Shown piece after piece: positions 2,340 through 33,235 of a DNA stretch of 33,235 nt. The stretch is taken from the IMG/VR virus record IMGVR_UViG_3300007734_000593, positions 1 through 33,235 of that record; one strand, given 5' to 3'. The translations under genes and the position numbers were made by a program. Position 1 is the first letter of the stretch. Every line of letters starts with the position of its first letter. Origin of the DNA: a virus. Under the pieces are notes generated by a model. It did no database searches, had not been told where the DNA came from, and was given only the letters and a program-made list of their open reading frames with translations.

Positions 2340-2364
2340 TAATATAATACAAATATATTACAAT
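2336..2364 (+). promoter_or_regulatory. Promoter of the ATTAC family before the gene at 2373
   Basis: TTGATA (2336-2341), a 17-bp spacer and TACAAT (2359-2364), then eight bases to ATG 2373. The spacer (ATATAATACAAATATAT) is identical to that of the promoter at 4896 and near-identical to those at 1160 and 32092. The -35 overlaps the bet stop codon, so the promoter would boost genes downstream of bet. Confidence 0.72.
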
Positions 2365-2372
2365 ATATAAAT

Positions 2373-2540: not shown

Positions 2541-2544
2541 AAAT

Positions 2545-2970: not shown

Positions 2971-2974
2971 ATAC

Positions 2975-3184
2975 ATGAATAAAGACATATCAAAAAATAT
3001 AGTTATAAAAATGATTATTAATCCATTTTATGCCATAGACATAGATCCTACATTTACAGAAAAACACGAAAAAATAATTGATAGGCAGACATGGATAGAG
3101 GCAAATACAAATCTTATAAAAGAAATAGGATCAAAAAATTACTTAACAACCCTATTAAGCGTGCTTGAAGGTGAATATGTATAA
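2975..3184 (+). CDS. Small protein of unknown function (69 aa)
   Basis: A 69-residue protein with the segment NPFYAIDIDPTFTEKHEKII in its first half and a helical C-terminus. No cysteines or membrane segment. It starts four bases after the previous stop. Its last eight bases overlap the start of the PD-(D/E)XK nuclease gene (ATG 3177), so the two are probably coupled in translation. The link with the nuclease is positional only. Confidence 0.75.
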   Translation: MNKDISKNIVIKMIINPFYAIDIDPTFTEKHEKIIDRQTWIEANTNLIKEIGSKNYLTTLLSVLEGEYV

Positions 3185-3746
3185 AGACAAACAAAAATTT
3201 AGAGCAAGTTATAGCATTCTAAGCAAATGGGCAGGCGGTCAATGGGAAGAGGCAATTAAAATGTATTTCAAGCTAGAAACATATACAAGCCCACAAATGG
3301 CTGAGGGTAAAAAGTGGCACGAAAAATGGGATATATATATAACTACTAATAAAGCATTGCCCCTAGAATTAGGCGGTAAAATTCTTATTTCGCCAATAAC
3401 AGAACTTAAAAAAGTTGTAAATTTGCAACATTGGCTGGATCTAGTGGGTGTTATTGATTGCTACGATAATAACACAGTATATGAGTTTAAAACGGGTAAA
3501 CAATCAAGCGATGCCTACGCATCAAGTAAACAACTTTCTATTTACGGATTACTTTGTACTTATGCCGGTCTATATGTAGAAAAAGCCGAAATTTATCACT
3601 TTGACCAATATATAGGAAAATATGATATGTCAGTTATATGGATAACTGATAATATGCTAAAAGATGCTTATAATTGGATCGAAACATTATCAAGCGAAAT
3701 GCACAGCTATTTTATAGAAAACGATTTATATAATAAATATGCCTAA
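3177..3746 (+). CDS. PD-(D/E)XK nuclease (Cas4/RecB-like exonuclease)
   Basis: The protein (189 aa) carries the nuclease signature of the PD-(D/E)XK superfamily: an upstream MAEGKKWHEKW (His48), then GVID (Asp94), EFKTGK (Glu103, Lys105) and a later QLSIYG (Gln119, Tyr123). This order matches the RecB/Cas4-like exonucleases of phage recombination systems, which resect ends to give single strands for the annealase (bet at 1404). ATG 3177 is preferred over the in-frame TTG 3165 since the latter adds only four residues deeper in the neighbouring gene. It overlaps the genes on both sides by eight bases. No Fe-S cysteine cluster like that of true Cas4 is visible. Confidence 0.85.
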   Translation: MYKDKQKFRASYSILSKWAGGQWEEAIKMYFKLETYTSPQMAEGKKWHEKWDIYITTNKALPLELGGKILISPITELKKVVNLQHWLDLVGVIDCYDNNTVYEFKTGKQSSDAYASSKQLSIYGLLCTYAGLYVEKAEIYHFDQYIGKYDMSVIWITDNMLKDAYNWIETLSSEMHSYFIENDLYNKYA

Positions 3747-4089
3747 TTTATCAGAATTTGCATTAAAAGAAACACAGCTAGTAGCACTTATTATAAATTA
3801 TTTGCTTATTAAAGGTCATTATGTATGGCGTAATAATAGCGGTTTTTTCAAGCATGACTACACAACTAAAGCAGGCATTAACAAAACAAGCGCTATACGG
3901 GCAGGTATTAAAGGTGGCAGTGATATAATCGGGGTAAGTAAATACGGCAAATTCATAGCCATAGAGTGCAAGACTGGCAAAAATAAGCCAACGGAATTAC
4001 AAAACATATTTTTACAAGAGATTGAAAAACGAGGCGGCCACGCAATAGTCGCATATTCACTAGAAGATGTAAGCAAATTTTTATTTTAA
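3739..4089 (+). CDS. VRR-NUC domain nuclease
   Basis: The whole 116-residue protein fits a stand-alone VRR-NUC domain: an early Glu11, WRNNSG at 30-35, IKGGSDIIG (Asp62), FIAIECKTGKN (Glu76, Lys78) and TELQNIFLQEIEKRGG with Gln88. Small phage VRR-NUC proteins act on branched or flapped DNA, probably resolving recombination or replication intermediates before packaging. It overlaps the PD-(D/E)XK nuclease gene by eight bases, completing an annealase-exonuclease-resolvase set. All expected catalytic residues are present. Confidence 0.9.
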   Translation: MPNLSEFALKETQLVALIINYLLIKGHYVWRNNSGFFKHDYTTKAGINKTSAIRAGIKGGSDIIGVSKYGKFIAIECKTGKNKPTELQNIFLQEIEKRGGHAIVAYSLEDVSKFLF

Positions 4090-4106
4090 TTAAAAAATAA
4101 ATCAAT

Positions 4107-4850
4107 ATGATGCCAGTATGGGAAATCTTAAGCAATATTTTAATAGAAACAAAGAGTATAGCAAAAGAAGGAATAACAACCGCTAAAATTGATCAATATA
4201 TTGAAAAACGTATATTAGATTTTAATACCACATCATGCAATAAGGGATACAAACCATATGGTAAAAAACCATATCCGGCAGTATCTTGTATATCGCCAAA
4301 TGATGTAATTGCACACGGTATACCAGATAACTATAAACTTAAAAATGGCGATATTGTTACAATTGATGTAGGAATTAAGAAAGACGGGCTTTGTGCAGAC
4401 GGCGCATTCACTGCCATTATAGGAAATGTGCCAGAACGAACAAGGCAATTGGTAAATTGTAGCAAACTTGTTATATTTGAAGCTTTAAAATATGTTAAAG
4501 CGGGTGCAGATACAATGGATATTACTAAGGCAATTAATAGTTACGTATCATTAAATAGATTTGTTGCTAATAGGCGATTATGTGGGCATGGTATTGGTGA
4601 GCAAATGCACCAATTGCCTAAAATTTATAATGCATTTGGAAAAGACAATAAATATTCAATTCTTGAAGAGGGAATGATGATTTGTATAGAAGTGCCGATG
4701 AGTATTTATGATAATGAAGGTATGTCACTTAGTGACGGGTGGGCATTAACAACCAGAGATGGGCGGCCTGCAAGTATGTTTGAGCTTATGGTAAGGGTAG
4801 AAAAGAACGGCGCAACAATATTAACCACCCACTTTAATGAAAAAGATTGA
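4107..4850 (+). CDS. map: Methionine aminopeptidase, type I-like
   Basis: The protein (247 aa) has the length and all key residues of a type I methionine aminopeptidase, the enzyme that removes the initiator Met from new proteins. I see His70 (IAHGIP), metal ligands Asp87 (TIDVG), Asp98 (CADGA), His161 (GHGIG), Glu195 (ICIEVP) and Glu226 (MFELMV), and a second His168 (EQMHQLP). It is therefore probably active. No N-terminal SH3-binding or zinc extension is present. It follows the recombination genes and precedes a palindrome and an early promoter. Such enzymes are rare in phages of this size; it may help process abundant phage proteins, or substitute for a host enzyme that is limiting or targeted. 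Residue identity is certain; the role is inferred. Confidence 0.93.
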   Translation: MMPVWEILSNILIETKSIAKEGITTAKIDQYIEKRILDFNTTSCNKGYKPYGKKPYPAVSCISPNDVIAHGIPDNYKLKNGDIVTIDVGIKKDGLCADGAFTAIIGNVPERTRQLVNCSKLVIFEALKYVKAGADTMDITKAINSYVSLNRFVANRRLCGHGIGEQMHQLPKIYNAFGKDNKYSILEEGMMICIEVPMSIYDNEGMSLSDGWALTTRDGRPASMFELMVRVEKNGATILTTHFNEKD

Positions 4851-4870
4851 TATATTAAATTAGTAGTTAC

Positions 4871-4883
4871 CCACATTATGTGG
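4871..4883. promoter_or_regulatory. Perfect short palindrome, possible operator
   Basis: CCACAT-T-ATGTGG is a perfect 6-bp inverted repeat about one base, 13 bases upstream of the TTGACG promoter at 4896. With a one-base centre it cannot form a useful hairpin, so a dimeric DNA-binding protein is the likelier reader. There is no T-run after it. Confidence 0.4.
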
Positions 4884-4895
4884 ATAAAATGATAA

Positions 4896-4924
4896 TTGAC
4901 GATATAATACAAATATATTACACT
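4896..4924 (+). promoter_or_regulatory. Promoter of the ATTAC family before the gene at 4933
   Basis: TTGACG (4896-4901), a 17-bp spacer ATATAATACAAATATAT and TACACT (4919-4924), followed eight bases later by ATG 4933. Spacer is identical to the promoter at 2336. It probably drives 4933, 5103 and the terminase genes. Confidence 0.78.
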
Positions 4925-4932
4925 AAATTAGT

Positions 4933-5100
4933 ATGATTATTCAGGAAGATAAAACAATTACAATACCAATAGATGTAACAGCAAAAGGTGTTAAAACACT
5001 TACGTTGGATTTAAAAGATTATCAATTAATTGAAAGTACAAATACTAGCATGATGTTTAAAATTATCAAAGTAGAAGAAGACCCATTGACACTTTATTAA
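4933..5100 (+). CDS. Small beta-rich protein of unknown function (55 aa)
   Basis: A 55-residue protein starting MIIQEDKTITIPIDV, with alternating hydrophobic residues that suggest beta strands, and ending EEDPLTLY. No known motif. Its ATG lies eight bases after the -10 box of the promoter at 4896, so it should be the first cistron of a nearly leaderless message. The next small gene starts two bases after its stop. No function is assigned. Confidence 0.7.
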   Translation: MIIQEDKTITIPIDVTAKGVKTLTLDLKDYQLIESTNTSMMFKIIKVEEDPLTLY

Positions 5101-5102
5101 AT

Positions 5103-5222
5103 ATGGATAGGGTACTTTGTTTTATATTCGGACACCAAGAAGTACGATACCCAAGCACAACGGGCAAGTGGGTTATATGCAAAAGGTGTAAAATAAATCT
5201 ATACTTCATTAAGAAGTTTTAA
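5103..5222 (+). CDS. Tiny zinc-knuckle-like protein (39 aa), DUF1660-like
   Basis: A 39-residue protein with Cys6, GH at 10-11 and CKRC at 26-29. The pattern LCxxFGH ... CxRC resembles the small DUF1660 phage proteins, which probably hold one zinc ion. Function is unknown in that family. It begins two bases after the preceding stop and ends one base before the terminase small-subunit ATG, so all three are probably one transcript. Confidence 0.6.
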   Translation: MDRVLCFIFGHQEVRYPSTTGKWVICKRCKINLYFIKKF

Positions 5223-5223
5223 T

Positions 5224-5745
5224 ATGAGCGAACCAATTATAACAACACCAAACCCCGCAGGAACGGGGCGACCAATAATAAGCGAAGACCAATACAAATT
5301 ATGGCTAGAAGAATTACGGCCGCATTTAGAGTTAGCATGCTCTTTATACAGGGCTTGCACCAAGGCTGGGCTAGAAGAAAAGTACAAAAGAATATCCGAA
5401 AAGTACGCCTTAAATGATTGGTTTTCGGAAAAAGTTGACGCTTACCGCAGAGTGCTAGGCGAGAACATAAACGAGGTATTGGCTAGAATTACAAACAAAG
5501 CACTTGATAGAGCAAAGCGTGACGAAACATTAACCAAAGAAGACGTAGACGTAGTAAAGTATATGGGTGAAAAGCACAGGACAGCGCAACCCTTCTTTGT
5601 TAATAGAACCGAAACCGCACAGGCAAAAGAAGGCGAAGTAGGCAAGATACTTGATACAATAGAGCAAAGCGATTATGACAAACTTGGAACCGAGGCTAAA
5701 GGACAAATGGTGGCGAATGACACACCTATACAAAGTCAAGAATAA
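5224..5745 (+). CDS. terS: Terminase small subunit (probable)
   Basis: This 173-residue protein precedes and overlaps the large terminase by 71 bases, the usual place for the small subunit that recognises the packaging site and feeds DNA to the motor. The N-terminus (about 1-20) is Pro/Thr-rich; residues 30-75 hold a helical LACSLYRACTKAGLEEKYK segment that could be the DNA-binding helix-turn-helix; residues 80-130 look like the oligomerisation helices. Similarity is by layout rather than by a motif I can name. The 71-base overlap is large but both frames look coding. Confidence 0.72.
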   Translation: MSEPIITTPNPAGTGRPIISEDQYKLWLEELRPHLELACSLYRACTKAGLEEKYKRISEKYALNDWFSEKVDAYRRVLGENINEVLARITNKALDRAKRDETLTKEDVDVVKYMGEKHRTAQPFFVNRTETAQAKEGEVGKILDTIEQSDYDKLGTEAKGQMVANDTPIQSQE

Positions 5746-10589: not shown

Positions 10590-11507
10590 ATGACAGAAAA
10601 TGTACTAAATGATACAACAAATGCGGTATTTATACCGACAATTATTGCACAAAAATGTTTACAGCGTTTTCCTTCTTACTTAAACCTTGCTAAAACAATT
10701 GCAAAAGACAGTGATTTTGAAACGGCGACATTTGGTAAAGTTATTCAAGTAGCAAAAACCGGTGCAGTTGTTGCCAATGATAAGACCGCTGGCAATGTGT
10801 TCACTTTGCAAAATCCTACTGGAACAAATATTTCAGTAACACTTAATCAGCATAAAGAGGTAACTCTAGTAATTGATGATGTGACTAAGGTTTTGGAAAA
10901 TCAAGATACACAGATGAAGTATGCCAACGACGGTGCAATCGCACTAGCCGAAGCAGTAGAAACAACTATTGCGGCACTCCACCCTTCTGTAACAAGTACC
11001 GTTACTTGGAATAGATCAAGTGCAGCAACAATTGATGCTTCTATGCTTTCTATCCGAAAATATTTTACTGATCAAAAAGTACCAAAGTTAGAGCAGAGGT
11101 ATTTTTATTGCGATGCAACCGTTTACAACGATTTGCTCGGTACAGATAAATTTTCAAGATATGATGCTAGAGGAACTGGCGAACAAATTACCACAGGTTC
11201 GGTAATACGAGCTTATGGAATGGAAGTTTGGGAGAGTCAGATGATACCGGTAACTGGGTCACCAGTTGCTTATCATAACTTAGCTTACACTAAGGACGCT
11301 TTCATAATGGCTTCGCGGCCATTACCACGACCAATAACAGGCACAGGGACTTTATCGGCAGTTATCAATGATCCAACGTCGAGCGTGTCCCTTAGGACGC
11401 TCTTTTCATACGACGCGGCTCTTGGTGCGCATAAATTAACCCTTGATTTACTCTATGGTGTTTCAGTACTTGATCAACGCAGAGTAGTTGAAGTTGAAAG
11501 CTTCTAA
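10590..11507 (+). CDS. Major capsid protein (HK97 fold)
   Basis: A 305-residue protein between the scaffold gene and a strong terminator. Segments typical of HK97-fold coat proteins are: the N-arm to about 30; the E-loop area about 45-90; the spine helix DGAIALAEAVETTIAALH near 110-127; SVIRAYGMEVWESQMIP near 204-220; and the C-terminal FIMASRPLPRPI ... LGAHKLTLDLLYGVSVLD of the A domain. It has one of the best ribosome sites in the genome (AGGAGG at 10575-10580, nine bases before ATG), and its own terminator at 11525. Both fit a very abundant product. No capsid protease or delta domain is seen, so the scaffold appears to be separate. Confidence 0.93.
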   Translation: MTENVLNDTTNAVFIPTIIAQKCLQRFPSYLNLAKTIAKDSDFETATFGKVIQVAKTGAVVANDKTAGNVFTLQNPTGTNISVTLNQHKEVTLVIDDVTKVLENQDTQMKYANDGAIALAEAVETTIAALHPSVTSTVTWNRSSAATIDASMLSIRKYFTDQKVPKLEQRYFYCDATVYNDLLGTDKFSRYDARGTGEQITTGSVIRAYGMEVWESQMIPVTGSPVAYHNLAYTKDAFIMASRPLPRPITGTGTLSAVINDPTSSVSLRTLFSYDAALGAHKLTLDLLYGVSVLDQRRVVEVESF

Positions 11508-11593: not shown

Positions 11594-12796
11594 ATGCCCT
11601 ATTTAATAAGTCCTACGGGGAAATACGTCGCAATTGATGATCAAAAAGAATACCAACGGTGGATAAACGAAGGCTTTAAGATAGCAACATTACAAGAGCA
11701 AAATATATATATTAAAACCAAGACACAGCTTGCCGCACAAAGTAATCAAGGCATAGATAATATTTCAAATAGTGTATATATGGCAACTGTATCACAAGGT
11801 GGCAAAGACGGTTATTCAATTGCTAGTGGTATTATTCTTGAGGAATTGCAAGCAAAAGGAATTAATATATCAACAAGCAATTTGGGACAAAAAATTGCTT
11901 TGCTTTTTCATAATCCATATAGCATTACCCGACTTGAAGCGCCATATCGCATACTTTATACTATGTTTGAAAGCGATAAAATACCGAATGATTGGAAAAG
12001 TTATTTGAAGGAAGCGGATAAAATACTTGTGCCTTCAAAATGGTGCGCGCAAGTATTTGCAAAAGCAGGAATTATGGCAGAAGTAGTGCCACTGGGATAT
12101 AATGATAAAATATTCAAGTATAAACCACGTATAAATAAACGCAAAATGCGCCAAGATTTTATATTTTTACATTACAACGCTTTTAATATACGCAAGGGAT
12201 TTACAGAAGTATTTAAAGCATTTGTTAAAGCTTTTAATAAAGATGAGCCAGTTAAAATGATCTTCAAGACTACGCTTGATTATATCCCATTACCAATCAC
12301 TAAAAGTGAATATCCTAATATCGAAATTGTAAGAGGCAAAATTAGCGAAACTGAATTATTAAATATTTGTTATCAAAGCGATTGTTTCGTGTATCCCAGC
12401 AGGGGTGAAGGCTTTGGATTGACTCCCCTTGAAGCAATGGCAACAGGTATGCCGGCAATTGTCCCGAATGCGCACGGTATTAGTGAATATTTTAATGATA
12501 AATATATGTATGAGGCAAAAGTTAAGGAAACATGCCCAGCTATTTATTCAAGATATAAAGGCCAAGATGTGGGTAAAATGGTAGTGTGTGACGTGGATCA
12601 ATTAGCTAAACAAATGCGGTATGTTTATGAACATCAAGATCAAGCAATAGAAATTGGCCGTCAAGCTTCGGAGTATGTTAAAAACTGGACAGGAACAAAA
12701 ACAGCAGAAAATTTATATATGATATTTAAGAAAATTCAAAGTATAGATTTAAATAACAAACCTCTCAAGAATAGTTTATTATTAGAATTAATATAA
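11594..12796 (+). CDS. Glycosyltransferase, GT-B fold, family 4-like
   Basis: The protein (400 aa) ends in a clear GT4-type nucleotide-sugar domain: VYPSRGEGFGLTPLEAM (267-282) with the E-x7-E pair Glu272/Glu280, then GMPAIVPNAHGISEYF. Upstream is LVPSKWCAQVFAKAG (145-159) and the HYNAFNIRKGF hinge (193-203). Such enzymes transfer a sugar from a nucleotide donor. The first ~35 residues (MPYLISPTGKYVAIDDQKEY) are not part of the enzyme fold and could be a docking tag. It is the first gene after the capsid terminator. Acceptor unknown: capsid, tail or host wall are all possible. Confidence 0.9.
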   Translation: MPYLISPTGKYVAIDDQKEYQRWINEGFKIATLQEQNIYIKTKTQLAAQSNQGIDNISNSVYMATVSQGGKDGYSIASGIILEELQAKGINISTSNLGQKIALLFHNPYSITRLEAPYRILYTMFESDKIPNDWKSYLKEADKILVPSKWCAQVFAKAGIMAEVVPLGYNDKIFKYKPRINKRKMRQDFIFLHYNAFNIRKGFTEVFKAFVKAFNKDEPVKMIFKTTLDYIPLPITKSEYPNIEIVRGKISETELLNICYQSDCFVYPSRGEGFGLTPLEAMATGMPAIVPNAHGISEYFNDKYMYEAKVKETCPAIYSRYKGQDVGKMVVCDVDQLAKQMRYVYEHQDQAIEIGRQASEYVKNWTGTKTAENLYMIFKKIQSIDLNNKPLKNSLLLELI

Positions 12797-12816
12797 ATAA
12801 GAGGTGGTGATAAGTT

Positions 12817-12993
12817 ATGGGGATAACAACAAATATTCAAGAAAAAAAAGAAATATTAAAATATAGATATGTTTGTTACGGTTGCACTGATATTGCTTTC
12901 AAAAGCTTTAACAACATAATAGGCAATATGATTGTTTGTGATCGTTGCGGAAAAGAACAAATTACAGTATTAGAAAATTATATAGCCTTATAA
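12817..12993 (+). CDS. Small zinc-ribbon protein (58 aa)
   Basis: A 58-residue protein with CYGC (20-23) and CDRC (42-45), a four-cysteine zinc ribbon. A strong GAGGTGG ribosome site lies seven bases before ATG 12817. Its spacing and sequence resemble the Com-like protein at 20832. Function unknown; a nucleic-acid or protein-binding role is plausible. It lies between two glycosyltransferases. Confidence 0.75.
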   Translation: MGITTNIQEKKEILKYRYVCYGCTDIAFKSFNNIIGNMIVCDRCGKEQITVLENYIAL

Positions 12994-13013
12994 TAGAGTG
13001 TTGTCACAAAATT

Positions 13014-13055
13014 ATGGATTTTATAGACGAAATAAGGGGGGGATTTTCATATTAA
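13014..13055 (+). CDS. 13-codon open frame ending at a seven-G tract; leader peptide or real start of the next gene
   Basis: ATG 13014 opens a frame for MDFIDEIRGGFSY and a TAA at 13053-13055. The frame contains a seven-G tract (13036-13042). If the tract were six G, the same ATG would read straight into the glycosyltransferase at 13051. As sequenced it stops, overlapping ATT 13051 by one base. It may be a leader peptide, or the start of a gene that switches by tract length. A TATAAT at 12989-12994 lies upstream. Confidence 0.4.
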   Translation: MDFIDEIRGGFSY

Positions 13056-14172
13056 AATAAAATATTGTGGCACAGCGCTTGATTATTCGGGGTATGGTGA
13101 GGCCAATCGCCATGATATAGCGGCTCTTATTATGGCCAACATTGAAGTTACTACACAAATACCAAAATATACGCTAGAGATTAGTGATTTCGGCGAATTG
13201 GGCGAATTAGTGCAAAGACTTGAAAATCGCATATTAGATTATAAGATAAAAATATTACATACTACACCAAATGTTTACCCTCAATTTTTTGAGGACGGCA
13301 AATATCATATTGCGCGCGTTTTTTGGGAAACAAACAAGATCCCCCTAGATTTTGCTAAAAATATAGAGTTGTGTGATGAGATTTGGACAGGAAGCCAATA
13401 TAACGCAGACGCAATACGTAATGCAGGTGTTACAAAGCCAATCTATATAATACCAGAAGCAATAGATATTAAGATACCTGATGATTTACAGGCATATGAG
13501 GAATTACCAAATAATAAAACCTATAAATTTTACTCAATATTTGAGTGGACAAAGCGAAAAAACCCAGAAGCATTACTTGAGGCATACTGGCGTGAATTTG
13601 AAGGGCAAACAGATGTATCTATGACTATTAAAACTTATGTGGATAATTTCACACCAGAAAAAAAAACAGAGATAAATCAATATATTAGATTAATTAAAAA
13701 AAAGCTTAATTTGAGGCATTATGCGCCAGCGTATTTATGCCGCAACTTAATGGATAGATACCAGATATATCGTTTCCATAGATCATTTGATTGTTTTGTT
13801 TCAACGCATCGAGGCGAAGGCTGGGGAATACCACAAATGGAAGCATTGCTAGTTGGCAATCCGATTATATCAACTAATTGTGGCGGCATACACGAATACT
13901 TAAAAGACGGGGATATAGCTAAATTACTGCCTTATAAATTAGTGCCTCTTATTGACAACAACCGCAATAAGCAATGGTATACAACTGATCAAATGTGGGC
14001 AGAGGTTGATATTGACGAAGTGCGCAAAGCATTACGTTTTATATATAATAATCAAAAGAAAGTAAAAGAAATGGGGGAAAATGGAAGTAATTTTATTAAG
14101 GAAAATTTTGGTCTTAAAGTAGTAGGCGAAAAAATGCGTAGACGATTGCAGGAAATCTTAAATAAAATATAA
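13051..14172 (+). CDS. Glycosyltransferase, GT-B fold, family 4-like; start in doubt (AUU or upstream ATG)
   Basis: The catalytic half is clear: STHRGEGWGIPQMEAL with an E-x7-E pair, followed by NPIISTNCGGIHEYL. The first ATG is 13132, but the frame upstream encodes IKIKYCGTALDYSGYGEANR, which is the expected first strand and glycine loop of such an enzyme and is open back to 13036. So the real start is upstream. Options are ATT 13051, eight bases after an AAGGGGGGG ribosome site, giving 373 aa; or ATG 13014 if the seven-G tract is six in the active form. The gene follows the zinc-ribbon gene 12817 and is part of the sugar-modification block. The function call is firm; the start is not. Confidence 0.85.
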   Translation: MKIKYCGTALDYSGYGEANRHDIAALIMANIEVTTQIPKYTLEISDFGELGELVQRLENRILDYKIKILHTTPNVYPQFFEDGKYHIARVFWETNKIPLDFAKNIELCDEIWTGSQYNADAIRNAGVTKPIYIIPEAIDIKIPDDLQAYEELPNNKTYKFYSIFEWTKRKNPEALLEAYWREFEGQTDVSMTIKTYVDNFTPEKKTEINQYIRLIKKKLNLRHYAPAYLCRNLMDRYQIYRFHRSFDCFVSTHRGEGWGIPQMEALLVGNPIISTNCGGIHEYLKDGDIAKLLPYKLVPLIDNNRNKQWYTTDQMWAEVDIDEVRKALRFIYNNQKKVKEMGENGSNFIKENFGLKVVGEKMRRRLQEILNKI

Positions 14173-14180
14173 AAAATATT

Positions 14181-14372
14181 ATGAGCAATCACAATTTCGA
14201 GTTATTTATAAATACAGATAATAAATCATACAAGGTTAAAGTCGGTTATCGTTTATGGAATTGCGCTGGGTGCGATACGATAATAATGTATCCAAATCAT
14301 TATTCACAAAGATTAGTTAATCAACTTGTAGATAAATCAAATTTAATACATATACCAACAGAAAAAAATTAA
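14181..14372 (+). CDS. Small protein of unknown function with one CxxC (63 aa)
   Basis: A 63-residue protein with a beta-type start (NFELFINTDNKSYKVKVGYR) and one CAGC at about 28-31. One CxxC cannot hold zinc alone, so it might bind metal as a dimer or with His residues (His39, His57). It starts eight bases after the glycosyltransferase stop and ends one base before the next gene, so it is co-transcribed with both. Confidence 0.7.
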   Translation: MSNHNFELFINTDNKSYKVKVGYRLWNCAGCDTIIMYPNHYSQRLVNQLVDKSNLIHIPTEKN

Positions 14373-14373
14373 A

Positions 14374-15381
14374 ATGAAAATATTATATATATCGTGTCAT
14401 TCTGTACTTGAATATGACGAACTTAAATTATTTGAAGAATTAAATATTGACTATTTCAGTTTAGGATCATATATTGATCCGCTTAATCCGGCTGATCCTA
14501 TTAGGCCTGCTCTCACTCATATACCAAATGAATGGTGTTATGCAAATGCACCAGATCGCAACAATATACCAAAAGAGTTTTTTGATAGATTTGATGTAAT
14601 TATTATTATGCACATAAAAGAATGGATAATTGATAATTGGGACAAAATTAAAAATAAAATAGTAATATGGCGCACAATCGGACAATCTACTCCGGCATAT
14701 GAAAGAGCTTTATTGCCTTATCGTAAAGAAGGATTAAAAATTGTGCGTTATTCGCAGCGTGAAGCATATATACAGGATCAGATAGGTTGCGACGCAGTAA
14801 TTGAATTTTACAAAGATGAAAATGAATTTAATATGTGGAATGGCCTAGAAAAACAGATAATGGTACTTAACCAAGATATGAGTAATAGGTTAAGAGAATG
14901 TAATTATGAAGCTTTTTTGAAATTTGCCGAAAATTTACCAGTCAAGCTTTATGGAACAAAAAATGAGGGTAGTGGGAATATATCTGGTGGCTATTTATCT
15001 TATGAGGCAATGAAACAAAAAATGCGAGATTGCAGAGTATATTTTTATGCTGGCACACAGCCTGCGAGTTATACCTTGAATTTTATCGAGGCATTAATGA
15101 CAGGTATACCAATTCTTGCGCTCGGTAGTGACCATGCAACATCTATGGAATTAGCAGGGAAAGACACATATCAAATACCAGATATTATACAAAATGGCGT
15201 TAATGGCTTTTATAGTGATGATATATCGCAATTGCGGGACTGGGCGCATGTTTTATTAAAAGATGAGAAAACGGCGGCAAGGATTGGCGCAATGGGAAGG
15301 CAAACCGCTATTCAAAATTTCGGGAAGAATAATATAAAATTAAAATGGGAAAAGTTGTTAAAAAAATACAATGTGATATAA
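14374..15381 (+). CDS. Glycosyltransferase-like protein, GT-B fold (probable)
   Basis: The protein (335 aa) begins MKILYISCHSVLEYDELKLF, the first strand of a GT-B Rossmann domain. The C-terminal half has VYFYAGTQPASYTLNFIEALMTGIPILALG (about 222-251), where a Glu follows the donor-binding loop as in GT1/GT4 enzymes, then NGVNGFYSDD and a final helical segment. The classic EGxG is changed to TQPAS, so catalysis is not assured. It follows a small CxxC gene by one base and precedes the methyltransferase. Role is presumably in the same modification pathway. Confidence 0.78.
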   Translation: MKILYISCHSVLEYDELKLFEELNIDYFSLGSYIDPLNPADPIRPALTHIPNEWCYANAPDRNNIPKEFFDRFDVIIIMHIKEWIIDNWDKIKNKIVIWRTIGQSTPAYERALLPYRKEGLKIVRYSQREAYIQDQIGCDAVIEFYKDENEFNMWNGLEKQIMVLNQDMSNRLRECNYEAFLKFAENLPVKLYGTKNEGSGNISGGYLSYEAMKQKMRDCRVYFYAGTQPASYTLNFIEALMTGIPILALGSDHATSMELAGKDTYQIPDIIQNGVNGFYSDDISQLRDWAHVLLKDEKTAARIGAMGRQTAIQNFGKNNIKLKWEKLLKKYNVI

Positions 15382-15382
15382 T
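15374..15382 (+). promoter_or_regulatory. Extended -10 promoter before the methyltransferase gene
   Basis: TGATATAAT (-10 TATAAT at 15377-15382) eight bases before ATG 15391; a possible TTGTTA -35 lies at 15355-15360 (16-bp spacer). It overlaps the 3' end of the previous gene. The context is very like the portal promoter at 7361. Confidence 0.65.
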
Positions 15383-15390
15383 TGTAATAT

Positions 15391-16095
15391 ATGGACATAA
15401 CAAAAAGACTACTTGAACTTGATCCAACATTACAACGCCACAATGAGGGATTTTGGCAAGTACCATACAATCCAAGCGCAGGCAGTTATTCATCTTTTAA
15501 CGACGCAGGCGTTGAAATTGAAACAGGCGAATTTTTATATGCTATTACACGCCTATTAAAACCGAAAAGAGTACTAGAAACTGGCACGCATATTGGAGTT
15601 GGCGCCGCATATATGGGAATGGCGCTAAAAGATAATCTTAATGGTCATTTGGATACCATAGAATTTTTGCCGGAAATTCACCAAAGAGCAAAAGAGCGCA
15701 TGATTGCGCTTGGCCTTGAGGATCAAGTTACATGCCATTTTGGGGACGCGGCAAATTTTGATATATTACCCAAAAATCAAATCGGAAAGTATGAGGGGTA
15801 TATTGAGCCACTTTATAAACTAATTTTGCTTGATACCGAACCTCAAACAAGGTACGCCGAGCTTGTTAAATTTTATCCATATTTACAGGAAGGCGGATTT
15901 ATATTTATACACGATTTGCACCAACACATGCACCAAATACCAAATGAGGAACACGGCTTTGCATGGCCATTTGGAAAAATACCAAAGGCAATGAGCGATT
16001 TAATTACAAGCGGAAAATTGCGACCATTTCATTTTGCAACACCAAGAGGCTTAACAGGATTTTACCGTGTTGCAGAACAAGATTACAAATGGTAA
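15391..16095 (+). CDS. Class I SAM-dependent methyltransferase
   Basis: The protein (234 aa) has the Rossmann SAM-binding pattern: motif I VLETGTHIGVGAAYM (61-75), an acidic Glu91 after the second strand (DTIEF) to bind ribose, GDAANF (118-123) and LILLDTEPQTRY (144-155) as motif III/IV, with FIHD at 172-175. This resembles the Methyltransf_24/O-methyltransferase group found in glycan gene clusters. It lies within the glycosyltransferase block, so methylation of a sugar is the likely job, but a protein or DNA target cannot be excluded. DNA methylase motifs (DPPY, NPPY) are absent. Confidence 0.88.
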   Translation: MDITKRLLELDPTLQRHNEGFWQVPYNPSAGSYSSFNDAGVEIETGEFLYAITRLLKPKRVLETGTHIGVGAAYMGMALKDNLNGHLDTIEFLPEIHQRAKERMIALGLEDQVTCHFGDAANFDILPKNQIGKYEGYIEPLYKLILLDTEPQTRYAELVKFYPYLQEGGFIFIHDLHQHMHQIPNEEHGFAWPFGKIPKAMSDLITSGKLRPFHFATPRGLTGFYRVAEQDYKW

Positions 16096-16134
16096 TTAAA
16101 TTAAATATAACAAGTTAATTATTATAAAAAATAT

Positions 16135-17205
16135 ATGAGAAGCCGTGCAGCAATACTGCCATACCCAGCAGATCCATTTTTACTTAATTATTGGTTGCAT
16201 TTTTACGATACCGTATGGGGTGACGAAATAGACAAGCTCTATATCCATATTAATAGTCCAATTGAAGAACCAGTTATTGACTATATCAAAGCGCTTTGTG
16301 ATAGTCGCCCGAAAATTGTTTATAAATATACTAATAATCAAATAGAGCATGGCGACGCAATAAATGAAATACTTGATATAGTAAGAGAAAAATACGTTAT
16401 GCTTATTGAAGATGACGGATTTATCTTTAAAAAAAATCATGTTGATTGGTGTTTTTCACAGCTTGAAAGCGGTATATATGATATTGTTGGCAGTAAGCGC
16501 GGAAGCTGCGCTACTGAAATAATACAAGCAGCGCAAGTAAAATGGGGTATAACAATCGAGGGGGACGGGGATCAAGGCTGCAATTTTTGGCCTAATTATT
16601 TTTTTTCTGAAACAGAACTTTTAAAGAAAACGGATCGCAATTTTAAAGCAAAAGCATGGAATAAGGGCGAAACAATCGAAGCATTAGGGTATGTTGTAGA
16701 GCCTGACGTTGTTTATGGTGACACTTTTGTAAACACAAGCCTACAACTACGCGCAATGATACCAATAGAGCGCATTTTTATAGTACCCCAATATCACGGA
16801 CACCCAAGTGACTTACAGCATTATCAAGAAAGTAAATATTTATTTGACGGTAAGGCATCATGGACACATGTTGGCAGCTTATCAAGTGGAGTGGGCGGCA
16901 TTTTACGTGATGATCATGATAGAGCGCTTGCAAGGCGTCTTATTGATCCAGCAAAGGCACAAACAGAACTACCCCTTGCATGGTGTCAAAGCGAGCAAGA
17001 ACATGAGGAATGGGAAAGGCGCGCGCAATGGTGGCTTACATTTATTGAGTATTTTAATATCAATAATCAAGAGGGCATATCAGAGGACTTTTATAATTTC
17101 GCAAAGTTATATGGTAGAGCCGTAAATCAACTTATATCACAATATGGCCTACGCAGAAAATCAATACAACAGCGCCAAGAGGTATACAAATCAATAGGAC
17201 TATGA
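16135..17205 (+). CDS. Glycosyltransferase-like protein, GT-A fold
   Basis: The protein (356 aa) has an N-terminal GT-A-like domain: LYIHINSPIEEPVIDYI strand-helix (about 35-51), YVMLIEDDGFIFKK (87-100) with the acidic EDDG that would bind metal and sugar nucleotide, and later DTFVNTSLQLRAMIP. The C-terminal part (about 220-356) has a Trp-rich helical segment WCQSEQEHEEWERRAQWW. It follows the methyltransferase; the next gene overlaps by four bases (ATGA). Acceptor unknown. Family assignment rests on the EDDG strand and context, so is moderately firm. Confidence 0.78.
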   Translation: MRSRAAILPYPADPFLLNYWLHFYDTVWGDEIDKLYIHINSPIEEPVIDYIKALCDSRPKIVYKYTNNQIEHGDAINEILDIVREKYVMLIEDDGFIFKKNHVDWCFSQLESGIYDIVGSKRGSCATEIIQAAQVKWGITIEGDGDQGCNFWPNYFFSETELLKKTDRNFKAKAWNKGETIEALGYVVEPDVVYGDTFVNTSLQLRAMIPIERIFIVPQYHGHPSDLQHYQESKYLFDGKASWTHVGSLSSGVGGILRDDHDRALARRLIDPAKAQTELPLAWCQSEQEHEEWERRAQWWLTFIEYFNINNQEGISEDFYNFAKLYGRAVNQLISQYGLRRKSIQQRQEVYKSIGL

Positions 17206-17927
17206 ATATAAAGCCCGACGTAGTGGTGTGTTGGCCACGTAATTGTGATTATCCATTATGGCGGCAATTTATCCGTGATAATCGTAGTGGATTTAATTTA
17301 GTGATTGTTGTATTTACGGAAACAAATCAAGGGCAAAATTATCGTGAATTTATACGCAATGCAATGCAAAAAGATTATGTATTATTTATAGAAAATAGAC
17401 AAATTACAGGTGATCAAGATTGGCGCAATATAGCGGTAAATTCTTCATTGTTGCAAAGTTATAACGCAGAATGGGTATGGTTTACTGAACAAGATTTCAT
17501 TATTACTGATCCAGTATATTTTTGGGGATTTGTAGAAAAAGCCGCAAATGCTGGAAATGAAGTAATCGCAGTTAAAGACGCAGAACGTATGCACCCATGT
17601 TGTATTTTTATTAAAAGAGGCGCGCTTAATAGGACAAGTAAGAATTTTGCTGCAAATCCACCCTCACATGATCATTTTGGACAAATTCAAAAAGACATCG
17701 AAGCATTAAAACTTAAGATCAAGATAATTGATAAAGGATTTTTGCACTTAAACGGTTTAAGTCACAATATGACACTTCTTGAAAGTGGACAAGTACCAAA
17801 TTACTACCCCGATATATTTTGGTCATGGCTACAAGAAAGTTCACACGTACCCACAGTCGATTTAGATAGTAGATTTATGCAACAAGTAGAAAAAATGAGG
17901 GTATTACTTGGCAAACCTAGCGTGTGA
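17202..17927 (+). CDS. GT-A-like glycosyltransferase (probable)
   Basis: The protein (241 aa) starts KPDVVVCWPRNCDYPLWRQF and has VWFTEQDFII at 92-101, where EQDF takes the place of the DxD metal motif, with a following FIKR and a late LHLNGLSHN (His759 region not catalytic by itself). This is the pattern of a small GT-A glycosyltransferase. It overlaps the previous gene by four bases. After its stop comes the inverted-repeat element at 17949. I am sure it is coding; the enzyme class is likely but not proven. Confidence 0.68.
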   Translation: MNIKPDVVVCWPRNCDYPLWRQFIRDNRSGFNLVIVVFTETNQGQNYREFIRNAMQKDYVLFIENRQITGDQDWRNIAVNSSLLQSYNAEWVWFTEQDFIITDPVYFWGFVEKAANAGNEVIAVKDAERMHPCCIFIKRGALNRTSKNFAANPPSHDHFGQIQKDIEALKLKIKIIDKGFLHLNGLSHNMTLLESGQVPNYYPDIFWSWLQESSHVPTVDLDSRFMQQVEKMRVLLGKPSV

Positions 17928-17948
17928 AAAATAGCCCGTATTTTCGTG

Positions 17949-18034
17949 AAAAGTAGGCAAAAGACCCCTACTCCCCTACTTTTTGAGGCTAAATTGCATT
18001 TTTTGCAATAGGTGGTAGTAGGGTAGGGGAGTGG
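17949..18034 (+). promoter_or_regulatory. Attenuator-like element with two mutually exclusive stems
   Basis: AAAAGTAGG (17949-17957) can pair with CCTACTTTT (17975-17983), giving a nine-pair stem whose 3' arm runs into T: terminator-like. CTCCCCTAC (17971-17979) can instead pair with GTAGGGGAG (18023-18031), a perfect nine pairs that extends to 17968/18034 with one G-U. The two cannot form together. The inner loop holds TTGCA...TGCAA. It lies in the 123 bases between 17927 and the gene at 18051, so it may control read-through into that gene. Confidence 0.6.
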
Positions 18035-18050
18035 CACTATTGCCGCAGAT

Positions 18051-19109
18051 ATGAAAACTTACAATGTAATGGTAGACTTTCATCACGCTGGGCTTTTAAA
18101 CAGCCTTATTTTATTATTTGAAAAGCGTCTTGGTGGCAATGTGTATAGGCCAATTGGTGAAGAATGGTTTGAGCAAGGCTTTTGGAAAGTATACGACCAC
18201 CCAGCAACAGTAAAGCAATTTCTTGGTATTGGTGGATCTACTCCAGACGGATCAGAAAGACTTAATGAAGTTGTCGATGAGCCACTAGAAGGACTGTATC
18301 ATTGTAAAGATATTGAAAGCCACAGTACTAATAAGGCAATTACTTTTGATTTATTTATGAAGTTACAGATAGATATTGTCATTGCTTCAATACCTGCACA
18401 CATAAAGCCCTTTAAATATCTTTGTGAGATACACCCTAATAGGCCTAAGTTTATTTATCAGATTGGCAATAGTTGGAATATAGAAGCAGGGCTATCATCA
18501 AACATAATGGCAAGTGCAAATATAAACGACGTGCCAGAAAATATACATTTTATAAAATACCACCAAGAATTTAATACAAATATATTCTGTCCCTCTGTGG
18601 GGATACCAGATAAAAAAATCTATTCTTTTGTCAATGTATTTAACGGACAAAATCATTTCGCTTCTGACTGGAATTTATTTACACAGTTAGAACGGCAATT
18701 ATTGGATTGGGAATTTAAAAGCTTTGGCGGGCAATGTCGTGACGGATCATGTAACGGAAGCCATGAGCTTGCAATCAAAATGCAACAAGCACGTTTTATA
18801 TGGCATACAAAAGCAGGCGGTGACGGATACGGACATATTATTCATAATGCCGCCGCAGTGGGTAGGCCATTGATAGTTAAAAAAAATTATTATTGGGGTA
18901 AATTAGCAGAAGCCTTATTAATTGACGGAATTACTTGCATAAATATAGATAATTTAGGATATGAGGAAATAATAAATAAAATTAATTATTTTAACGACGC
19001 ACAAAGATATAATGAAATGTGTGTGGCGACATATCAAAACTTTATCAAAGTATGTAATTTTGATAAAGAATTTAGGGGCTTGCAAAATTTCTTAGAAAAA
19101 CTGATATAA
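18051..19109 (+). CDS. Glycosyltransferase-like protein, GT-B fold (probable)
   Basis: The protein (352 aa) begins KTYNVMVDFHHAGLLNSLI, a Rossmann-like strand and loop, and its second half has MQQARFIWHTKAGGDGYGHIIHNAAAVGRPLIVKK, a donor-site pattern of GT-B glycosyltransferases (Lys/Gly-rich loop followed by His and a small-residue helix). An E-x7-E pair is not visible. It is the last gene of the sugar block, separated from it by the attenuator-like element at 17949. The connector gene that follows has its own promoter overlapping this gene's 3' end. Confidence 0.72.
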   Translation: MKTYNVMVDFHHAGLLNSLILLFEKRLGGNVYRPIGEEWFEQGFWKVYDHPATVKQFLGIGGSTPDGSERLNEVVDEPLEGLYHCKDIESHSTNKAITFDLFMKLQIDIVIASIPAHIKPFKYLCEIHPNRPKFIYQIGNSWNIEAGLSSNIMASANINDVPENIHFIKYHQEFNTNIFCPSVGIPDKKIYSFVNVFNGQNHFASDWNLFTQLERQLLDWEFKSFGGQCRDGSCNGSHELAIKMQQARFIWHTKAGGDGYGHIIHNAAAVGRPLIVKKNYYWGKLAEALLIDGITCINIDNLGYEEIINKINYFNDAQRYNEMCVATYQNFIKVCNFDKEFRGLQNFLEKLI

Positions 19110-21759: not shown

Positions 21760-22122
21760 ATGACAAAACCAATTACAGTTAAATTAGAAAATAAAACAGT
21801 AGAAGTTAAAAAATTACCTCTTGGTAAATATGCAGAGCTTCTAACGGCAGTAAAAGAATTGCCAAAAAGGCTAGGTGGTTTGGATAAAATGACAAACGAC
21901 CAAATCTTTGAACAATTACCTATATTAGTTGCTACAAGCATACCAGATTTAATAGGCATACTTTCAATTGCAACCGAACTAAAACCAGAAGAAATAAACG
22001 AAATGGGATTAGACGAGGCAGTAGAAGTATTAGTAGCAGTAATAGAGGTCAATAATTATCGCGACGTATACGAGAATATAAAAAAAGTAATAGCCCGCCC
22101 GAAGACGGAAATATCGGCTTAA
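21760..22122 (+). CDS. Tail assembly chaperone, short form (gpG-like)
   Basis: A 120-residue helical protein in the gpG place between major tail protein and tape measure. It begins MTKPITVKLENKTVEVKKLPLGKY, a beta start, followed by helices such as LPILVATSIPDLIGILSIA and AVEVLVAVIEVNNYRDVYENI. A seven-A slippery run (22080-22086) lies 33 bases before the stop, and the -1 frame is open beyond it for 119 codons. So a long form (gpGT-like, 228 aa) is made by some ribosomes. Both forms coat the tape measure during assembly. Confidence 0.88.
   Translation: MTKPITVKLENKTVEVKKLPLGKYAELLTAVKELPKRLGGLDKMTNDQIFEQLPILVATSIPDLIGILSIATELKPEEINEMGLDEAVEVLVAVIEVNNYRDVYENIKKVIARPKTEISA
22080..22086 (+). 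promoter_or_regulatory. Programmed -1 ribosomal frameshift site, A AAA AAA G
   Basis: Seven A (22080-22086), read in frame as ata-aaa-aaa-gta, followed by G. A -1 slip on the two Lys codons re-reads A22086 as the first base of AGT and enters a frame open to 22445. Spacing and gene position fit lambda G/GT. The stop of the short form at 22120 is 33 bases downstream. Confidence 0.85.
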
Positions 22123-29875: not shown

Positions 29876-30964
29876 ATGGCAAAAATTAACTTACCGATAG
29901 TGTATAGTCAATCGGATACGAGGTGGGCAAATCTTTTGCTCGGTTTTAATACAGATCCACAATATAATTTTTATAATTATGCTTGCCTTATTACTTGCCT
30001 CACCAACATATGCCGTTATTTTGGCTATGATGATACACCAGTTACTATAAATCAAAAACTTATTAATCTCGGCGTTAATGTAGGATTTTCCGTTGGTAGC
30101 GCACTTTATGTATGGGGTGCGCTTACTAAAATATACCCAGAAATAAAAGAAAAACTTATTAATATAGGCGATACGCCAGTATCAGACGTACAAATGGCAG
30201 AGATCAGAAATGCACTTGATAATGGTATGCCCGTAATGCTTCAATTAGACTATAATCCAAAAACAGTAAATAATGACACTCATTATGTTATTGCAATTGA
30301 TTATAATTCTAATGATCAAAACGATATTACTATTGCAGATCCAATCGGTGGGAAAATACATAGTTTGAAGGATTATTTAGGGTGGATTAGGCCAAGCGCT
30401 AAAAATTCAATTTTTCAATATATTATTTTTACCGGATCAAAGCCGAGTATCAATGCTGATACTATACCAGTAGCTAAAAAGGACTTTGAAAATCTTGTCA
30501 ATAAGAGTACTCAATTTGATAAAATAGTGCATTATGTAATCGGCGATAATGCTAACCCAGTCAATACCTCTTTTGAGGACATACAGAGGGTAATAGCAGG
30601 CTTTAAAAGTGATGCAACTACGGCTAAAAATACACTTATTGCCACACAAATGGAAGTTATAAAAGCTAACTCTGAAATTACAAATAAGAATGATCAATTA
30701 TCAAATATGCAAATTGAGTGCCAAAGAGAGATTAAAATCGAAAAAGACCGATACAGTGGGCTAAAAGGAACTATGCCAAATATTGCAAAAATAGAAGCGT
30801 TGTATATCCCTCAAATAAAAGACTTACAGAGTAAGCTAAGGGATAAGCAAATTGAGGTAGGAAAATTTAATTTACAGCTAAATGCTTGCAGAGCTGGACA
30901 ACAAAAAATAAATATTATCAAAATACTATCATCTATTTTTACAAAAAAAACAACTATAAAATGA
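29876..30964 (+). CDS. Endolysin with C39-like cysteine peptidase domain
   Basis: Residues about 1-190 fit a C39-like (papain-fold) peptidase: VYSQSDTRWA (9-18) with Gln12 for the oxyanion hole, NYACLITCLTNI with Cys37 as nucleophile, DTHYVIAIDY with His136, and TIADPIGG with Asp155. Phage C39-like enzymes cut peptidoglycan crosslinks or peptides. Residues about 210-345 form a long coiled coil, a possible dimerisation or wall-binding part. There is no signal peptide, so release should depend on a holin (31241). The last bases overlap the next start as ATGA. Total 362 aa. Bond specificity cannot be told. Confidence 0.85.
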   Translation: MAKINLPIVYSQSDTRWANLLLGFNTDPQYNFYNYACLITCLTNICRYFGYDDTPVTINQKLINLGVNVGFSVGSALYVWGALTKIYPEIKEKLINIGDTPVSDVQMAEIRNALDNGMPVMLQLDYNPKTVNNDTHYVIAIDYNSNDQNDITIADPIGGKIHSLKDYLGWIRPSAKNSIFQYIIFTGSKPSINADTIPVAKKDFENLVNKSTQFDKIVHYVIGDNANPVNTSFEDIQRVIAGFKSDATTAKNTLIATQMEVIKANSEITNKNDQLSNMQIECQREIKIEKDRYSGLKGTMPNIAKIEALYIPQIKDLQSKLRDKQIEVGKFNLQLNACRAGQQKINIIKILSSIFTKKTTIK

Positions 30965-31240: not shown

Positions 31241-31426
31241 ATGAAAACAGCGCTACAATCAAAAACGATAATTTTTAATCTTTTATCCTTAGTACTTTCA
31301 GTGCTTATGTTTATGACACCAATAGTGCCAGACGGTAATATAAAAGATTTACTTTTTGCAAGTGTAGCAATAATTAATATTTTACTTAGATTTAAATCAA
31401 ATACAAAAATTAATGGGGTAATTTAA
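31241..31426 (+). CDS. Small holin-like protein (61 aa)
   Basis: A 61-residue protein with MKTALQSKTIIFNLLSLVLSVLMFM (helix about 10-28), a turn at TPIVPDGN, and a second hydrophobic helix LLFASVAIINILLRF (37-52), ending in a basic tail. Two helices and a Lys-rich end fit a small holin that opens the membrane for the endolysin. It begins four bases after the XhlA-like gene and ends the late operon. Confidence 0.8.
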   Translation: MKTALQSKTIIFNLLSLVLSVLMFMTPIVPDGNIKDLLFASVAIINILLRFKSNTKINGVI

Positions 31427-31653
31427 TAATAAAATGGGTAAGTTGTAAATTTGCAATACTTTTGCCTTGAAAAAATCCAAAAGTTAGCATAATGCTTATT
31501 GCAATAATCCATTTTATTTGGTAGATTTTTTATAGATACAGTTAAATAACGTAAAAATCAAAGTGTTTTTACCTTGCTTATCGTTTCTAACTTACATAAT
31601 AGTGATGCCCTTAGCCAAGTGGGGTAGTAAAATTGTTATAGCATTGCAAGAGT
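31427..31653. other. Non-coding stretch between holin gene and terminator
   Basis: No frame of note. Some short hairpins can form: CTTTTG (31459-31464) with CAAAAG (31478-31483), and AGCAT-A-ATGCT (31486-31496, single-base centre). GCCAAG at 31614-31619 is a further copy of a terminator arm. I see no promoter that I trust, so this may be the long 3' end of the late transcript or another RNA. Confidence 0.5.
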
Positions 31654-31738
31654 AAACCTATTCTTAGGTTTGCCAAGTGAAAACAGCTTGGCAATGGCGT
31701 GTTATAACGCTTGGCAAACCTGAGTATAGGTTTTTTTT
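31654..31738 (+). terminator. Very strong intrinsic terminator of the late operon
   Basis: Bases 31654-31677 pair with 31710-31733 over 24 positions with one mismatch and one G-U; eight T follow (31731-31738, partly shared with the stem). The 32-base loop contains CTTGGCAA (31687-31694), a second copy of the 3' arm, so TTGCCAAG (31670-31677) can pair in two ways. Confidence 0.93.
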
Positions 31739-31762
31739 GTCAAATTTATGGGAACAATAACA

Positions 31763-31793
31763 TTGATCATATTTTCTAAAATATTAATATAAT
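31763..31793 (+). promoter_or_regulatory. Promoter of the probable ncRNA
   Basis: TATAAT (31788-31793) with TTGATC (31763-31768) at 19 bp. The predicted transcript start is about 31799-31800, exactly the foot of the GCGACG stem. The region 31741-31797 is very AT-rich. Confidence 0.5.
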
Positions 31794-31798
31794 AATCA

Positions 31799-32078
31799 GC
31801 GACGGGGGGGTTAAATTTGCAAGCGTCGCAGCACAGAAAAGTTGCAAAGCTAAAACCTTATGCTATCTCGACAGCACATCGAGATCCCTAAAGGGAATAG
31901 TACTTAACACTTACTAAATGCAGAGATGTGGCATGTAGGTGTATGCTAGACGAAAAATGCTAAGCATCTTACAGACACTTGATCGGTGCGGACAAAAAAA
32001 CCGAAAAACGCCGTTTATAAAACTCTTAAATGGGGGTGGGGGGGACTTTACCCACTAGCCCTTCTGGGAATAGTTTTT
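31799..32078 (+). ncRNA. Probable structured non-coding RNA, about 280 nt
   Basis: No good frame begins here, yet stems are dense: GCGACG/CGTCGC (31799-31804, 31824-31829); ATCTCGA/TCGAGAT (31865-31871, 31879-31885); TCCC-TAAA-GGGA (31885-31896); GCAT/ATGC (31931-31934, 31943-31946); GGTG-CGG with CCG-CGCC (31985-31991 with 32001-32003 and 32009-32012); GTGGG/CCCAC (32036-32040, 32051-32055). A promoter ends just before it and a terminator hairpin ends it. I do not recognise a known family; I looked for tRNA, tmRNA, RNase P and group I intron marks and did not see them. GOLLD- or ROOL-like phage RNAs, or a packaging RNA, are conceivable but not shown. Confidence 0.55.
32054..32078 (+). terminator. 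Weak intrinsic terminator of the probable ncRNA
   Basis: CCC-TTCT-GGG (32059-32068) inside CTA/TAG (32055-32057, 32071-32073), followed by five T (32074-32078). The stem has internal loops, so it is weak; but its position just before the promoter at 32092 is suitable. Confidence 0.5.
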
Positions 32079-32091
32079 AATAACTTACCTA

Positions 32092-32120
32092 TTGACATTG
32101 TATTACAATTATATTACATT
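32092..32120 (+). promoter_or_regulatory. Promoter of the ATTAC family, start of the early operon
   Basis: TTGACA (32092-32097), 17-bp spacer, TACATT (32115-32120), then TTATAT and ATG 32127 (six bases). Shares TTACCTATTGACATT and the paired ATTAC elements with the promoter at 1160. It follows the ncRNA terminator and is likely the main early promoter. Confidence 0.82.
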
Positions 32121-32126
32121 TTATAT

Positions 32127-32285
32127 ATGGATAAAGAGATTGAAGAATTAGACGACAATAAATGTCCGGATTGTGCTACATTATTAGAGATTGAATGGGA
32201 CAACACCGGATTTGATGCACCAGATCCGCAATATTGGGAAGTGGTGTCTGTTTGGTGTAATAACTGCGGATATAAACAAAGCTAA
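32127..32285 (+). CDS. Small zinc-ribbon protein (52 aa)
   Basis: A 52-residue acidic protein with CPDC (13-16) and CNNC (44-47), a four-cysteine zinc ribbon. ATG 32127 lies six bases after a -10 box, which makes it the leaderless start. A longer in-frame reading from GTG 31986 would run through the ncRNA and the promoter and is rejected. As first gene of the early operon it may act early on the host, but no target is visible. Confidence 0.8.
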   Translation: MDKEIEELDDNKCPDCATLLEIEWDNTGFDAPDPQYWEVVSVWCNNCGYKQS

Positions 32286-32863: not shown

Positions 32864-33139
32864 ATGAAAGAAAATACTCCAAAAATTATATCCGTTAACA
32901 CTCCAAAATCTTACGAAGAAAGACTTTATAGCTTAATACCAATTAGTGTAAAAACTTATTTAATATTTGAAAAACAAATTAGTAATCCACTATTCAATGA
33001 GGAAGCAAAAATAAATGCTGCAAAAATTATTGACTCACTTTATGCTAAATTTGATTATAATGATTTTGCCTCACTTTACGCATGGAGAAACTATGAAAAA
33101 TCAAGATCTCAAACTAAAGATAAGGAGAGTGAAATATAG
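32864..33139 (+). CDS. Unknown helical early protein (91 aa)
   Basis: A 91-residue protein: PKSYEERLYSLIPISVKTYLIFEKQI, then a helical EEAKINAAKIIDSLYAKF and a charged end (YEKSRSQTKDKESEI). No cysteine or membrane segment. It starts three bases after the preceding stop, and its TAG shares one base with the GTG of the gene at 31/33139, which shows that the two ends of the window are joined on the real molecule. Function unknown. Confidence 0.72.
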   Translation: MKENTPKIISVNTPKSYEERLYSLIPISVKTYLIFEKQISNPLFNEEAKINAAKIIDSLYAKFDYNDFASLYAWRNYEKSRSQTKDKESEI

Positions 33140-33235
33140 TGAAAGAAGCTGAGAGGCAGCTAATGATGACTATTTATATTGATAGGCAAAAACAACTAAT
33201 TGAAGGATACAAACAAATTGAACTTTTAACTGAAA
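33109..33235. repeat. Right copy of the 127-bp direct terminal repeat
   Basis: Identical to bases 1-127. It carries the 3' end of the gene 32864-33139 and, from GTG 33139 to the window end, the first 32 codons of the gene at 31-276, which is cut here only because the window ends. Confidence 0.97.

Follow-up and report, generated by a model that had tools for sequence, protein, structure and literature searches.

The P4 (seqA/CI) and Gifsy-1 (IsrK) loci encode, one after the other, a short RNA that is terminated, an mRNA made by read-through, and a stable RNA further downstream; in P4, termination depends on RNA pairing, and CI pairs with seqA and seqC, and in Gifsy-1 IsrK shares complementarity with STnc1160 (PMC4825925). 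A comparable layout of predicted terminator, small ORF, and structured stretch is seen in a module between the lysis and early genes of the phage genome analysed here (the window, i.e., the whole 33,235-nucleotide stretch of viral DNA), with a promoter that is clear in four of the seven genomes compared and weak in the window. Our preferred reading, to which we assign a probability of roughly one half, is that the structured stretch at 31797-32076 forms the second portion, reached by read-through, of a two-part module with conditional termination.

A common layout between the lysis and early genes

The first 127 bases of the window (1-127) are identical to its last 127 (33109-33235), which makes it a complete circular phage genome with a true length of 33,108 bases, and nearly all of its genes are on the plus strand. 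At the lysis end, a peptidase (29876-30964) is accompanied by a pair of small ORFs for membrane proteins; the structured stretch lies between this end and the early genes. Relatives were collected from IMG/VR with large terminase and capsid profiles, which gave about twenty related contigs, and more were obtained via the lysis peptidase, RecT, and a 66-aa protein. The capsid is 69% identical on one contig of a Patescibacteria MAG; when copies in host genomes were sought with capsid and RecT profiles, the capsid gave that MAG contig only and RecT gave two weaker matches. Judging from this one binned contig, the phage clade is probably linked to Patescibacteria, tiny bacteria that it seems to infect. 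One clade member (G009; L063 1-1029) encodes a tyrosine integrase next to its lysis end and is therefore likely to be temperate. Within the structural region, genes resembling glycosyltransferases and methyltransferases form a block (11594-19109 of the window) that is conserved across the clade.

Seven genomes cover the gap together with its two flanks (the window, G001, G002, G018, G004, L095, and L099), and all seven share one order: a long-hairpin terminator with its U tract, a small ORF, a structured noncoding stretch, a TTGA-type promoter, and the early genes. The terminator stems measure 18-25 positions, and the start codon of the small ORF comes 0-2 bases after the U tract in the relatives and nine bases after it in the window. 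The ORF in this slot has 14 codons in the window and 22 in G001 and reaches 114 elsewhere, with sequences that are unrelated between genomes. The 14-codon ORF (MGTITLIIFSKILI; 31748-31792, plus strand), which sits between the terminator and the RNA, is the counterpart by position of the relatives' small ORFs (22-114 aa); it has no sequence similarity to them and is a candidate coding sequence only. The structured stretch begins 0-10 nt past the ORF stop in the window and five relatives. The early promoter of the window (TTGACA-17-TACATT; 32092-32120, plus strand) has TTGA-type counterparts in the relatives, and G018 and G004 carry one extra small ORF between the RNA and this promoter. Two clade members, G009 and L111, are without the structured stretch and have a plain short terminator instead. 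Directly behind the terminator U tract, the ORF slot of L095 (6864-7180), L099 (7100-7379), G002, G018, and G004 encodes unrelated small proteins, several of which show zinc-ribbon-like cysteine pairs, and in G004 an AGGAG lies inside the hairpin arm, immediately before the start codon.

An earlier, sequence-only reading of the window had put the RNA forward as a candidate new phage noncoding RNA with its own promoter at 31788 and its own terminator at 32078, which would make it a free-standing small RNA of ∼280 nt. The signals are there in the window: TTGATC-19-TATAAT (31763-31793, plus strand) is among the top 0.1% of the genome's promoter-like scores (p 0.0055 at that anchor), its TATAAT (31788-31793) ends six bases before the foot of the first stem, the fold that follows is strong, and at its end a weak terminator-like hairpin (-6.9 kcal/mol) is followed by five T (32055-32078, plus strand). 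Neither signal, however, was seen in the relatives. A TATAAT just before the RNA was not found in any of the six, and in five the RNA directly follows the stop of the small ORF, a distance of 0-10 nt that leaves no space for a separate promoter; no clear terminator follows the RNA in the relatives, two of which have another ORF there. In the window itself, the TATAAT lies over the stop codon of the 14-codon ORF and belongs to that slot, the motif alone is common (39 on the plus strand, 1.17 per kb), and the hairpin at 32055-32078, which is specific to the window, was not picked up by a strict terminator scan. The promoter at 31788 and the 3' terminator could either be genuine additions of the window or owe their presence to chance, and we consider a free-standing small RNA possible, albeit unlikely.

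The switch-like terminator upstream of the structured stretch

Of the two halves of the module, the switch-like terminator at 31635-31738, missed by the sequence-only reading, is better conserved. The segment 31657-31738 has the form of an intrinsic terminator, with a stable 21-position stem and U8 at once after it, and counterparts were found in all six relatives. On the plus strand of the window, the 5' arm (b) is at 31657-31677 and the 3' arm (b') at 31710-31730, followed by the U8 tract at 31731-31738, a design common to the six relatives; the fold of 31601-31740 reaches -54.4 kcal/mol. Within the loop lies a' (GCAATGGCGTGTTATAAC; 31691-31708, plus strand), which is complementary to segment a (GTTATAGCATTGC; 31635-31647, plus strand) ahead of the stem. 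In six of the seven genomes, the segment just before the stem can form 8-10 exact pairs with the 3' portion of the terminator loop, of which it is the reverse complement, and the sequence of segment a is different each time (TGCAAACACA in G001, CTGGTTCAGC in G018, TAGGATTAGT in G002, GCTAAACAC in L095, CTGTTTAG in L099, and TGCGAAGC in G004). The shuffle p of a:a' is 0.0005-0.013 in the six relatives; the window carries an interrupted version (GTTATA and CATTGC), with a duplex of -17.0 kcal/mol and p 0.054. Parts that keep pairing while every base changes are a clear and testable sign of RNA-based control between late and early genes.

An H-type pseudoknot made of a:a' and b:b' was considered and is excluded by geometry, since linkers of a few nucleotides cannot span stems of ∼10 and ∼20 bp. 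With linkers this short, a:a' and the terminator stem are mutually exclusive in full, and the element therefore reads as a conditional terminator. A good -10 box abuts segment a in G001, G002, G018, and L099 (Fisher combined p 6e-7 over the seven genomes), which speaks for a promoter at this point, and a promoter abutting a was not found in L095 and G004. The window has a promoter-like site anchored to segment a (31605-31633, plus strand), with a weak -35 (ATGCCC), a spacer of 17 nt, and a -10 of TAAAAT (31628-31633), which is weak by itself (p 0.07). As the -10 box abuts a in these four genomes, a transcript from there would keep only the last few bases of a; most of a being outside the local transcript, the switch would need upstream transcription or pairing in trans. 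The terminator RNA and the structured RNA are no more complementary to each other than expected by chance, except for one marginal value in L099. Upstream of the terminator, a short inverted repeat carries TAGCCAAG in its loop both in the window (31608-31624) and at the equivalent place in G002, and GCCAAG recurs in the terminator stem.

In the preferred reading, a promoter just past the lysis genes, or late transcription arriving from upstream, would read into the hairpin terminator at 31657-31738, and pairing of a with the loop segment a' would exclude the full terminator stem, so that the terminator is either open or shut. By default, transcription would stop at 31738 and a short hairpin RNA would be made. 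Read-through would add the small ORF behind the terminator and the 280-nt structured RNA, so that one transcript covers both parts of the module. In this transcript the structured RNA may be a folded domain with a regulatory or stabilising role, or it may be processed into a small RNA.

The structured stretch and compensatory changes in two relatives

The proposal that some 280 bases lack a credible gene agrees with our analysis of 31797-32076 (plus strand), since the sole long ORF across them (GTG, 31986-32285) shares the frame of an early gene with its ATG at 32129 and extends it upstream. A base-by-base check located every element that had been listed, including at least six stems. On the plus strand, these are a first hairpin (31799-31829) with the foot GCGACG/CGTCGC (31799-31804 and 31824-31829) and a loop holding a G7 tract and TTTGC; two hairpins, CTCGA/TCGAG and CCC/GGG, closed by CTAT/ATAG (31863-31900); the hairpin CACTTAC/GTAGGTG (31908-31941); the hairpin GTATGCT/AGCATCTTAC (31941-31972); the hairpins CAC/GTG (31976-31988) and CGG/CCG (31989-32003); and a G5TG7 tract with the hairpin GTGGG/CCCAC (32032-32055, the hairpin at 32036-32055). 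The genome has only three G7 tracts, and the two that had been pointed out (31804-31810 and 32038-32044) are among them. The minimum free energy (MFE) of 31797-32076 is -81.6 kcal/mol, with a z of -3.4, and none of 200 dinucleotide shuffles was as good. The single-sequence MFE leaves some of the stems out, the G7 tract pairing with CCCUUCU in place of the first hairpin.

When the whole genome was scanned in 330 segments over both strands, a segment overlapping the stretch ranked fifth by z on the plus strand, and the minus strand of 31797-32076 was not among the best folds. The segment 31601-31880 ranked second because of the terminator at 31657-31738. Two coding segments on the plus strand, 11001-11280 at the end of the capsid gene (z -5.4) and 21801-22080 (z -4.7), fold more strongly than 31797-32076. 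A structured DNA site for packaging, recombination, or protein binding, whose hairpins act as DNA and whose RNA fold is a by-product, would also agree with an intergenic gap that contains inverted repeats and G tracts. The excess stability is on the plus strand only, however, the changes between G018 and L099 described below preserve pairs, and TerS and TerL, near which one would sooner look for a cos or pac site, are ∼6 kb away; we hold a DNA site to be improbable.

No family in Rfam 15 matched the window, the stretch included, at or above the gathering score, in line with the expectation that it fits no known family, and the same search gave no match in seven loci of the relatives. With E values up to 10 on 31420-32150, only noise was obtained over 31797-32076, a tRNA/tmRNA search gave none, and nucleotide relatives of the stretch were not found in the phage collection. 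One contig (L080 1-50, of G008) starts with AAATTAAATACTCCTATGGGGGGTAGGGGGGGCAACCCTCC, which resembles 32028-32055 of the window, and judging from this similarity it may carry the 3' end of a nearer relative of the window RNA.

The RNAs of G018 and L099 align with each other (79% identity over 57 nt, E 5e-9). In a hand structural alignment of helices P1, P1b, P1c, P2, P3, P4, and P5, 32 pairs were compared, of which 14 had changed on both sides while keeping the pair, one had changed on one side, and none was broken. An automatic alignment with RNAalifold, in which P1 and P3 were misplaced, still gave five both-sided pairs. The 14 both-sided changes with no broken pair signify, on comparison of these two sequences, that G018 and L099 have an RNA here whose fold is conserved. 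In a MAFFT alignment of the seven RNAs, the other five, the window included, could not be aligned with this pair or with each other. A covariance model built from G018 and L099 (R1) found only its founders among 28 sources including the window, and it gave no further match in 287 Patescibacteria genomes, a search that had no positive control. With the window RNA unmatched by R1, homology of the RNAs is argued by their place alone, and since the window RNA is too diverged to align, the covariation does not extend to its own stems. The case for a functional RNA in the window is made by its own fold and its place, not by covariation.

In five of the seven genomes the fold z is below -2 (the window with -3.2, G001 with -2.2, G002 with -2.5, G018 with -4.4, and G004 with -3.2), and in L099 (z -0.95) and L095 (z -0.3) the MFE is not unusual against shuffles. 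These last two values, and a window RNA that has no alignable relative, would be in keeping with an ordinary intergenic leftover, in which the strong hairpins are those of the late terminator and 31797-32076 has no function. Such a leftover is very improbable in our view, as the fold is among the best of the genome, the layout is conserved, and a covarying RNA lies at the same place in two relatives. The stretch at 31797-32076 is very probably a real folded RNA, and likely a new structured phage RNA. What is well supported in the sequence-only reading is a structured phage RNA that is absent from Rfam, with structured noncoding stretches at the corresponding place in relatives; its description as a self-contained unit with its own promoter and terminator is not supported.

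Replication and comparison with known systems

ColE1 RNA II is structured, has G-rich segments, can pair in alternative ways at its 5' end, and belongs to a replicon in which no initiator is recognised; both it and the origin transcripts of T4 prime replication. A transcript-primed origin could be envisaged at our locus in the same manner: an RNA from an upstream promoter would fold, the G tracts would hold an R-loop, and replication would be primed with no initiator protein brought by the phage. The early proteins (31-5224 in the window, and the early regions of the six relatives) include RecT, PDDEXK, VRR-NUC, HNH, SSB, RusA, and similar proteins, and no helicase, primase, polymerase, or initiator family was recognised among them in the window and the six other genomes. 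In six of the seven genomes, the RNA strand is enriched in runs of at least four G (10 per kb in the window, against 1.4), and the GC skew is positive all round the circle, which fits unidirectional replication. Nevertheless, G002 has no G runs there, the GC skew also tracks gene direction, many phage replication proteins belong to no recognisable family, and G009, which is without the RNA, is also without a recognised initiator family. A test of complementary distribution failed to support the replication role, for the members without the RNA likewise show no known initiators, and the absence of initiators therefore does not single out this spot. Compared with ColE1 RNA II, counterparts of its antisense RNA I, RNase H site, and origin would be hypothetical here, and ORFs break up the transcript in five relatives. 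We consider a transcript-primed origin decidedly unlikely.

As a broader form of the conditionally terminated module, a self-complementary terminator that gates a structured RNA might represent a new class of RNA in Patescibacteria phages, possibly a protein-free replication origin, which we put forward as a speculative and rather unlikely generalisation. To our knowledge, little is known about regulatory RNA in Patescibacteria phages, whose hosts are hard to grow, and these poorly known hosts together with the switch-like terminator add to the interest of 31797-32076. As no replication protein is recognised in these genomes, how they begin to replicate can be tested directly at this locus.

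Phages and prophages are known to carry GOLLD and ROOL, and the window stretch is presumably about half the size of GOLLD, ROOL, and OLE, or less. The stretch resembles these three in being a structured noncoding RNA (PMC12286853), but it differs in having no Rfam match even at E 10. The c4 antisense RNA (RF02944, c4-2) is similar in having a long outer stem with inner hairpins, and it gave a weak match at the terminator (31655-31734; 26.6 bits, E 0.0035). This candidate was rejected, the score being below the curated 41 bits, the match covering the terminator and not 31797-32076, and L095 and L099 being unmatched. Compared with P4 CI and IsrK, the complementary segments here are segment a and the loop of the same hairpin, the downstream RNA of the module is not complementary to the short RNA, and no antirepressor gene was recognised; membership of either system is thus not established. 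In essence, the module resembles P4 CI and IsrK by layout, with a short RNA that would end at an intrinsic terminator, a small ORF that partial read-through would reach, and another RNA downstream, and by this comparison P4 and Gifsy-1 IsrK appear to offer the nearest described logic.
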